A DNA stretch of 20,024 nt from a virus. The stretch lies in the IMG/VR virus record IMGVR_UViG_3300022841_000082, positions 1-20,024 of that record; one strand, given 5' to 3'. The notes below the pieces were generated by a model. The model was given only the letters and a program-made list of their open reading frames with translations. It searched no databases and had not been told where the DNA came from. Shown in pieces: positions 923-2,490 of the stretch; the first letter of the stretch is position 1; every line of letters starts with the position of its first letter. A program made the position numbers and the translations under genes.

Positions 923-945
923 TTCCAAACTTTGGAACTTTGGAA
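923..945. repeat. attP left arm: three overlapping TTCCAAA(G/C)TT sites
   Basis: TTCCAAACTT is at 923-932 on the plus strand, and exact inverted copies AACTTTGGAA are at 928-937 and 936-945. The same 10-mer recurs on the other side of the tRNA-like core (1100-1109 and 1153-1162). Short repeats flanking a core are typical of integrase arm-binding sites. This role is inferred from their arrangement; the repeats themselves are directly visible. A perfect 10-bp inverted repeat (920-929 / 939-948) also results. Confidence 0.6.
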
Positions 946-955
946 TTTAGAAATC

Positions 956-987
956 AAAAAAGGCCACAAGCCGAAGCTTGTAGCCTT
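956..987 (-). terminator. Rho-independent terminator with UUCG-type loop
   Basis: On the minus strand a 12-bp stem (AAGGCTACAAGC / GCTTGTGGCCTT, one T-G wobble) is closed by a TTCG tetraloop and followed by a T run. It lies directly beyond the CCA end of the tRNA-like fragment. It may stop transcription from the integrase operon, or have been captured with the host tRNA end. Confidence 0.75.
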
Positions 988-1007
988 ATGATTTCATTGA
1001 ATAAAAA

Positions 1008-1057
1008 TGGCGGAGTGGACGGGACTCGAACCCGCGACCCCCGGCGTGACAGGCCGG
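1008..1057 (-). other. Probable attP core: 3' half of a tRNA-Asp(GTC) gene
   Basis: The minus strand reads an anticodon arm (CCGGC-CTGTCAC-GCCGG, anticodon GTC at 1050-1048), a variable loop, a T arm with GGTTCGAGTCCC, the 3' acceptor strand and an encoded CCA at 1010-1008. No D arm or 5' acceptor strand precedes it, so it is not a complete tRNA gene. A tRNA 3' half next to a tyrosine integrase is the classical attP arrangement: integration would rebuild an intact tRNA-Asp in the host. Phage-type genes lie on both sides, so the sequence looks like unintegrated attP rather than attL or attR. Confidence 0.8.
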
Positions 1058-1099
1058 TGCCAGAAGCCAATGAACATGCGGCTTTCAAGAGGATTGACG

Positions 1100-1162
1100 T
1101 TCCAAAGTTAGGGGTAATTTTGATACGTTTCTCCTATGAAGAAGAAATTATATTCCAAACTT
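1100..1162. repeat. attP right arm: two TTCCAAA(G/C)TT sites
   Basis: TTCCAAAGTT is at 1100-1109 and TTCCAAACTT at 1153-1162, between the tRNA-like core and the end of the integrase gene. They match the three sites on the left of the core. The spacing of 53 bp (about five helical turns) would put the two on the same DNA face. Arm-site function is inferred. Confidence 0.55.
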
Positions 1163-1171
1163 TTTGGCTGT

Positions 1172-2263
1172 TTACCCTGCTGGTTTTGCACGCTTTACAA
1201 GACGCCTGTCGTAGACCTGCTGGATCATCTTGTCTGATGCATGGCCGGTAACATTTTTGACATCGGTGTCACCTCGTTCAAGCTTGTCGCTGACTCCCAT
1301 AGGACGGCATTCTTGAAGACTGAATTGCTTGAATGGGATGCTCTCTTTCTTGGCTTCCAAGATACATTCACGCATCAAGTCAGTCAGCATAGACTTCCAG
1401 CCACCTTTGGTATAGCGGCTTCCTTGCATATTGCCAAAGATGTACAAGCCACTGGCGGTCTTGTTACGCTGGATAGCCAAAGCTTCAGCAATAGTTTCCC
1501 GCAAACCAGGACTCCACTCAATCAAGATTGCAGGCTTGTCATGGTTCTTGCCGTCTTGCCACAAGATGCCGTCTTCTTGGATATTTTCTTTTTGGATTGC
1601 ACGAACTTCAACAGAGCGTCTGACACACAACCAAGCAGTGCGCAGACCCATTGCAACAATGTGCCTTGCACCGCCAAACTTGCGCCCTACTCTAGTAGCA
1701 AGCTCCATTTCTGCAGCAGTGACTAAGCGTCTTTGTTTGACAGTCTTGTTCTTGGTTAGATCTGAGAATGGGTTGATTGATACCAAACCTTTCTTGATGC
1801 CGTACTCCATGAACAGCCTAGCCAATGCCATCTCTTTGTTGCCTTTCTCAGGGCGAGTGGCTTGGCAAGCTTCAAGGTACTCATAGCCCATGGTTTTGGT
1901 GAGCTCTTCAAGTTCAAGATGGCCAAAAGCTTTTACTAAGTTAGCAGCTTCTGGCTTGTTGCCTTTTAAGGTGGAGTCTGCACGCCTTTCTTTTGATTTG
2001 ATAGGTAATGCCTCTTGCCAAGCAAACCAAGCCGCCACAAGGCCGCTAAAGCTGCCTACAATTACTTGTGAGCCCATATTCATAGCAGTCTCTACAGCGA
2101 GCTTGCGAGTTTTGGCAACTTCAATAGGATTGTTGGCTGGGCAATCGAGGCGAAAAGCCCAACGACCATCCAGCATCTTGTAGCCGATTGAATAGACGCG
2201 AACGCCTATGCGTTCGTAGACACGAAATGGAAGTCCATCAGGTTTAACGCGACGATTGATCAT
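1172..2263 (-). CDS. int: Tyrosine-family site-specific integrase
   Basis: A 363-residue phage integrase. The C-terminal catalytic domain shows the box I arginine (RRSVEV, about residues 215-220), GHAS with His341 and the nucleophile Tyr351 in VYDRR. The usual HxxR motif reads QECR (317-320), so the first histidine is replaced by glutamine. The N-terminal half would hold the arm-binding and core-binding domains. It would recombine the attP just downstream with a host tRNA-Asp gene. Its ATG overlaps the stop of the DUF4224-type gene (TAATG), so the two are co-translated. The attP lies immediately 3' of the gene, as in many temperate phages. Confidence in the family is high; activity with QxxR is untested. 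Confidence 0.92.
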   Translation of the reverse strand: MINRRVKPDGLPFRVYERIGVRVYSIGYKMLDGRWAFRLDCPANNPIEVAKTRKLAVETAMNMGSQVIVGSFSGLVAAWFAWQEALPIKSKERRADSTLKGNKPEAANLVKAFGHLELEELTKTMGYEYLEACQATRPEKGNKEMALARLFMEYGIKKGLVSINPFSDLTKNKTVKQRRLVTAAEMELATRVGRKFGGARHIVAMGLRTAWLCVRRSVEVRAIQKENIQEDGILWQDGKNHDKPAILIEWSPGLRETIAEALAIQRNKTASGLYIFGNMQGSRYTKGGWKSMLTDLMRECILEAKKESIPFKQFSLQECRPMGVSDKLERGDTDVKNVTGHASDKMIQQVYDRRLVKRAKPAG

Positions 2264-2490
2264 TATTTTCTCAAGAAGGAAATGTTGGCACTGCGTGCTG
2301 GTGCATTAATTCCGGTATGCCGACCTGTACTGATTGCTTCGTAATGAGAGCGCTCTAGCACCAACCCTGCCTTGCCAACAAAAGCTCTTGTGAAGCCTCG
2401 TTGATGCAAGACAGAGAGTTGCTTTCCAGGTTTGGCGTAACCAGTCAACGCAACTAACTCGTTTTCAGTCAGTGTGATGCTTGCTGTCAT
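2263..2490 (-). CDS. DUF4224-type small protein, integrase partner
   Basis: The 75-residue protein has LTENELVALTGYAKPGKQ near its N-terminus. This pattern (acidic, LTGY, basic, KQ, then a short winged-helix-like stretch) is one I recognise as DUF4224, a family usually next to integrases in phages of Burkholderiales. It may act as an excisionase or recombination directionality factor, which is inference from gene position. The start overlaps the preceding stop as ATGA, and its own stop overlaps the integrase ATG. Confidence 0.75.
   Translation of the reverse strand: MTASITLTENELVALTGYAKPGKQLSVLHQRGFTRAFVGKAGLVLERSHYEAISTGRHTGINAPARSANISFLRK

Follow-up and report, generated by a model that had tools for sequence, protein, structure and literature searches.

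Results

Gene setting and integrase

The window, that is, the whole analysed stretch of 20,024 bp, is a linear virus fragment without a host junction. Its genes comprise the halves of an N4-type RNA polymerase, a family A DNA polymerase, a helicase and an ATPase/VWA pair. Profiles for the N4-type RNA polymerase and the DNA polymerase were matched (phrog_2166, E 2e-100; phrog_2051, E 2e-152; phrog_17, E 2e-148), and for both polymerases the closest named phages are N4-like. Judged from this gene content, the window is a fragment of an N4-like phage (Schitoviridae); a virion RNA polymerase is absent from the set of scanned genes, which covers an incomplete genome. Two genes with open frames lie beside the att region:

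1172-2263, minus strand: tyrosine integrase (Int), 363 amino acids, reading towards att (phrog_1, E 7.7e-20; best Foldseek matches are lambda Int)
2263-2490, minus strand: excisionase-like protein, 75 amino acids (phrog_1266, E 1.7e-5; phrog_4764, E 8.5e-4)

A phrog_1 integrase is present in 10 of the 29 records retrieved by the RNA polymerase. One of these ten (L083, from G001) combines an integrase 72% identical to that of the window with a similar att region and is the nearest relative of the window. The nine other N4-like records (L074-L082; the number of the L078 record, IMGVR_UViG_2838247499, is of the kind given to isolate genomes) have different phrog_1 integrases, for which tblastn against the window integrase showed weak similarity in L079 and L081 only; a tRNA scan of these nine of the ten integrase-bearing relatives found none. 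With the window integrase as single query, no relative was returned from viral_contigs or genome_contigs; with an alignment of two integrases (window and L083) as query, five further loci were obtained, comprising the L083 phage again and L088-L091.

The integrase model, built from six sequences and of middling confidence (pLDDT 72), has full-length lambda Int as its best whole-model Foldseek matches (1z1b_A, E 6e-9), and VIA aligned 231 residues with 1z19_B at Z 15.0 and rmsd 12.4. The predicted structure thus shows the tyrosine recombinase fold. Residues R216, K239, R320, H341 and Y351, assigned by eye, are invariant in six integrases. The tyrosine recombinase catalytic set is R-K-H-R-H-Y; by eye, the histidine position of HxxR appears to align with Gln317, which is itself invariant in the six relatives. 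Residues 12-63 of the model follow an E-E-E-H order, and residues 1-68 as a whole consist of three strands plus one helix, a topology shared with the arm-binding domain of lambda Int. When the N-terminal domain was modelled alone, no fold match was found at E ≤ 0.001 and no convincing match to the lambda N-domain, the P4-like integrase chain 3rmp_C appearing at Z 3.8 among unrelated rows. The integrase had no Pfam match and nothing useful in NCBIfam, and its best match in a sequence search of solved structures was at E 0.24. The Int N-domain is accordingly a putative binder of the arm sites described below.

Five arm-type repeats at 923-1162

The original prediction had placed five copies of TTCCAAA(G/C)TT around a tRNA-Asp core, three to the left and two to the right. 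An exact pattern scan of the window bears this out, with TTCCAAASTT at 923-932(+), 928-937(-), 936-945(-), 1100-1109(+) and 1153-1162(+), and no sixth exact copy anywhere in the 20,024 bp. Likewise as predicted, three copies are identical apart from orientation, all reading TTCCAAAGTT, and the two left sites of the same orientation (928-937 and 936-945) share two bases. The arms can be summarized as:

923-945, no strand assigned: CCA-side arm, three overlapping arm-type sites, TTCCAAACTTTGGAACTTTGGAA; 22 of 23 bases kept in L083
1100-1109, plus strand: anticodon-side arm site 1, at +51 from the loop centre
1153-1162, plus strand: anticodon-side arm site 2, at +104 from the loop centre and 9 bp from the int stop codon

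Rarity of the 10-mer elsewhere had been set as a test beforehand. All five exact copies in the window lie inside the att region, a count that covers 20 kb for the own record, which is a fragment of that length; the genome-wide count, run in the nearest relative G001 (69,382-bp record), gave exactly five copies, again all in the att region. The shorter string TTCCAAA occurs six times in the window, five of these within 923-1162, as compared to 0.04 copies expected per 240 bp on both strands in a composition model, for which P(≥4) is 1e-7. Allowing for one mismatch gave 6 matches in the window against 5.4 expected, and it is therefore the exact copies alone that stand out from the background. 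The sites at 923-932 and 928-937 overlap by five bases and together form one inverted repeat, TTCCAAA-C-TTTGGAA. As halves of a single inverted repeat, they reduce the five copies to at most four independent events, and the left cluster consists of this inverted pair and a third copy.

The tRNA-Asp core and its predicted crossover

Between the arms lie the following features:

1008-1058, minus strand: att core, the tRNA-Asp(GTC) 3' half that begins with the 5' strand of the anticodon stem and ends with the CCA, by identity with intact tRNA-Asp
1041-1057, no strand assigned: anticodon stem-loop CCGGC-GTGACAG-GCCGG, an inverted repeat by sequence; the core shared between prophage ends stops inside it

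The predicted tRNA-Asp core holds as regards identity with tRNA-Asp(GTC), though as a 3' half only: ARAGORN found no whole tRNA in the window. In comparison with intact tRNA-Asp genes of three genomes, identity extends to 1058 on the anticodon side; on the CCA side it reaches 1006, 1007 or 1008, depending on the genome. The core matches the tRNA-Asp genes of the genomes compared, and its anticodon stem, being an inverted repeat, is likely to present a pair of core-type Int sites flanking a 7-bp overlap. The crossover is accordingly placed, as the likely position, in the anticodon loop (centre at 1049), with the loop as the 7-bp overlap. Two observations agree with this placement, namely that the shared core ends within the anticodon stem in the three prophages for which both ends were found, and that arm distances are constant from the loop centre, a tRNA-Arg(TCT)-like core included. 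A 54-base core pattern retrieved 43 matching stretches from many Proteobacteria, none of which continues into the window's downstream sequence by more than 3 further bases, and the core therefore gives no indication of the host.

Integration of relatives at tRNA-Asp

The original prediction depended on integration at tRNA-Asp, and this is what the relatives display. Among 399 genomes from the family of G035, a Variovorax genome, six carry a close integrase relative at E ≤ 1e-60 (G035 itself matches only at E 3.2e-9 and so counts as int-negative at this limit). In all six, an intact tRNA-Asp(GTC) neighbours the integrase and TTCCAAA copies occupy the interval from the gene to the CCA; the provirus record L090 has the same arrangement. 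The far prophage end, with the second arm, was located in three of the six genomes. A loop-arm pattern was found in 3 of 7 int-positive and 0 of 14 int-negative records; it missed the int-positive G376, G281, G199 and G040, the int contigs of three of which end close by. Both prophage ends are on one contig in G321 (~51 kb apart) and in G056 (~37 kb apart). Among the 29 genomes of the genus of G056, its joined flanks are uninterrupted in G440, G441 and G449; in most of the others, the match to the flank begins at or near the CCA and is hence undecisive.

Arm conservation and spacing

Comparison with the att regions of related integrases, as proposed along with the original prediction, revealed conservation of both the arm sites and their spacing, with arm sites flanking the core on either side in window and relatives alike. 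L083 has all five copies at the window's spacing to within one base. Window and L083 are identical at 41/43 arm positions, 48/50 core positions and 101/161 of the other positions of 918-1171 (arms against non-arm, non-core positions, Fisher p 1e-5), and the arm differences are G/C swaps at the eighth base. What L088-L091 and the genome loci have in common is a unit of about ATTCCAAA; the 10-mer of the original prediction, present in five exact copies in the window, is not the repeat unit that the family conserves.

On the anticodon side, TTCCAAA stands at +51/52 and +104/105 from the loop centre in 8 of 8 att sites having this arm (the window, L083, L088, L089, L091 and L114-L116), where the first arm of L114-L116 was required by the search pattern and the free tests are thus the other five sites and all second arms. 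Only four stretches score high in the conservation profile of the eight sites, namely the core and positions +15 to +33, +50 to +58 and +103 to +111; the remaining positions are at ~0.3 and near chance. The profile adds one feature to the list:

1064-1082, plus strand: extra conserved block between the core and the first right arm, at about +15 to +33 (8-site conservation profile)

This block resembles CCAGCAnnnGCGCGG and is in some sites repeated before the second arm. The mirror symmetry of 936-945(-) and 1153-1162(+) about 1049, exact in the window, is not exact in the other sites and was not used.

The CCA-side arm has at least one TTCCAAA in 12 of 12 sites, at a distance varying from 76 to 126 bp. 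Its layout is a direct pair 21-22 bp apart in L089, L090, L091, L108, L109, L110 and L112, an inverted overlapping pair in L111 and L113, and an inverted cluster of three in the window and L083; in L088, an intact copy by the core is followed after 21 bp by a degenerate one, and another pair lies past an insert. By eye, the att of L088 (4500-5050) is broken by an insert resembling an HNH-type gene, and the CCA-side half core and arm pair are duplicated. In L091 (4100-4320) the arms are kept with a tRNA-Arg(TCT)-like core (tRNA identity by eye) and an integrase of the same family; on the evidence of its core, this att has switched tRNA target while retaining the TTCCAAA arms.

Orientation of att and a probable terminator hairpin

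In 10 of 10 non-N4 relatives (L088-L091, L108-L113), int is on the CCA side of the core and reads towards it, whereas in the window and L083 it is on the anticodon side, the att being inverted relative to int. The N4-type RNA polymerase profile phrog_2166 is present in G001, the source of L083, and absent from G038-G041 and from the six bacterial genomes. In the integrase tree, which has 12 rows including two partial ones, the N4-like pair occupies a nested position adjoining L088 and L089 (95/96). Given this nesting, the simplest reading is that att was flipped relative to int once, in the N4-like line. In an integrated N4-like phage, int would be at the prophage end opposite the intact tRNA.

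A further feature lies between the CCA and the left arm:

960-987, minus strand (that of tRNA and int): 12-bp hairpin with T run, from a terminator scan

The hairpin of L083 has the same loop and a stem changed in sequence yet still paired. Strong stems occupy this position also in L090, L108, L110, L111, L112 and L113; an arm site is part of the stem or enclosed by it in L089 and L109, and folding is weak in L091. Most likely, the hairpin ends transcription of the restored tRNA-Asp, and it may also serve as terminator for int transcripts crossing att in the free phage. Because of the att flip, the hairpin is downstream of int in the free phage and not in the prophage.

Discussion

The interval 923-1162 is understood, with high confidence, as the attP of a lambda-type (heterobivalent) tyrosine integrase of an N4-like phage, where Int binding and integration of the window's own phage are predicted from sequence. 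The likeness to the P and P' arms of lambda-type integrases that had been proposed is supported by the att comparison among relatives, in respect of site presence, spacing and link to the integrase family. In the proposed mechanism, the Int N-domain would bind ATTCCAAA arm sites on either side of the tRNA-Asp(GTC) core, and the catalytic part of Int would cut at the anticodon loop. On the anticodon side, the two arm sites would be separated from the crossover by ~5 and ~10 helical turns; the arm on the CCA side is looser. Recombination with the host tRNA-Asp would replace the 3' half of the gene by the phage copy, leaving the tRNA whole, and the restored tRNA-Asp would then have the phage terminator hairpin downstream.

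Alternatively, the region could be an attP in which TTCCAAA is bound not by the Int N-domain but by an accessory protein, be it Xis, a repressor or a bending protein of the host. The excisionase-like gene adjoining int, the inverted repeat of the left cluster, which is like many operators, and the further conserved block at +15 to +33 are compatible with such a role; however, both arms carry the sites, at distances that are usual for arm sites of Int, the sites track the integrase family across otherwise different phages, and lambda Xis sites are confined to one arm, so that we regard binding by an accessory protein instead of Int as unlikely. Still less probable is a non-functional relic of a decayed att. 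The fragment is uncultured and comes from a group long regarded as strictly lytic (PMC10654107), but the int and xis frames are open and, by comparison with L083, both arms and hairpin are under constraint. Chance or low-complexity repeats might be suspected from the one-mismatch pattern being at background and from similar palindromes in the unrelated L085 and L086; the P of about 1e-7 for four copies speaks against this, and same-spacing conservation in L083 and other att sites already refutes it, which renders chance a negligible explanation.

The proposed attP has analogies in known systems. As described in the sections available for lambda attP/Int (1z1b, 5j0n; PMC4880445), five arm-type sites are distributed over both core sides of a 240-bp att, as they are in the window, and int and xis likewise stand beside att with int reading towards it; the window differs from lambda in its tRNA core, its arm sequence, and the combination of arm sites at +51 and +104 on one side with an overlapping inverted cluster on the other. 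The Burkholderiales prophage modules (L108-L113, L090) share with the window the integrase family, the TTCCAAA arms, the tRNA-Asp target and the hairpin behind the CCA; their int is on the CCA side and opposite-convergent to the tRNA, in contrast to the anticodon side in window and L083. The class opposite-convergent, to which the non-N4 relatives belong, follows the InTr shape terms in the available part of PMC2951348. KplE1/IntS, as covered there, resembles the window in having integrase arm and core sites at a tRNA gene and exemplifies that the orientation of int versus the tRNA matters for regulation. Its int reads away from att and is autoregulated (PMC2951348, same part), whereas the window's int reads into att and, after integration, would be found at the other end of the prophage from the intact tRNA.

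The consequences of the flipped att can be carried one step further. With int transcripts ending at the hairpin in the free phage, and int and hairpin parted in the prophage, the arrangement might provide a sensing of integration similar to that by the lambda sib element, which is downstream of int in the free phage and not in the prophage; in addition, the overlapping inverted left sites, not all of which could be filled by two Int N-domains at once, might set the direction of recombination. We put this forward as a speculative possibility, on balance doubtful.

The attP is an element of a common type with three less usual traits: it belongs to an N4-like phage, its arm spacing is rigid across tRNA targets, and it is flipped. 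Integrase genes in N4-like genomes were already published (PMC10654107, available text); the term attP is absent from that text on integrase-bearing N4-like viruses, and none of the papers retrieved in literature searches describes in its title or abstract an attP for an N4-like phage. Our study has importance in that a testable attP, its target tRNA and its arm code are now defined for an N4-like phage. One integrase-att module moves between unrelated phages and keeps its arm geometry when the tRNA target changes, and the att can flip relative to int.

Lastly, similar strings were noted beyond the integrase family. The arm string TTCCAAASTTTGGAASTTTGGAA occurs in three records of viral_contigs (the L083 phage, L085 and L086), of which L085 and L086 were set aside for having no match to the window integrase. 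Palindromic CTTTTCCAAAGTTTGGAACTTTGGAAAAG is located at L085:4926-4948 and L086:43-65, the L086 copy adjoining cas1/cas2-like frames by eye. Burkholderia phage BgManors32 (L123:3640-4170) has a 27% identical integrase with a tRNA 3' fragment and three TTCCGAA downstream, copies that perhaps represent a shifted arm code.
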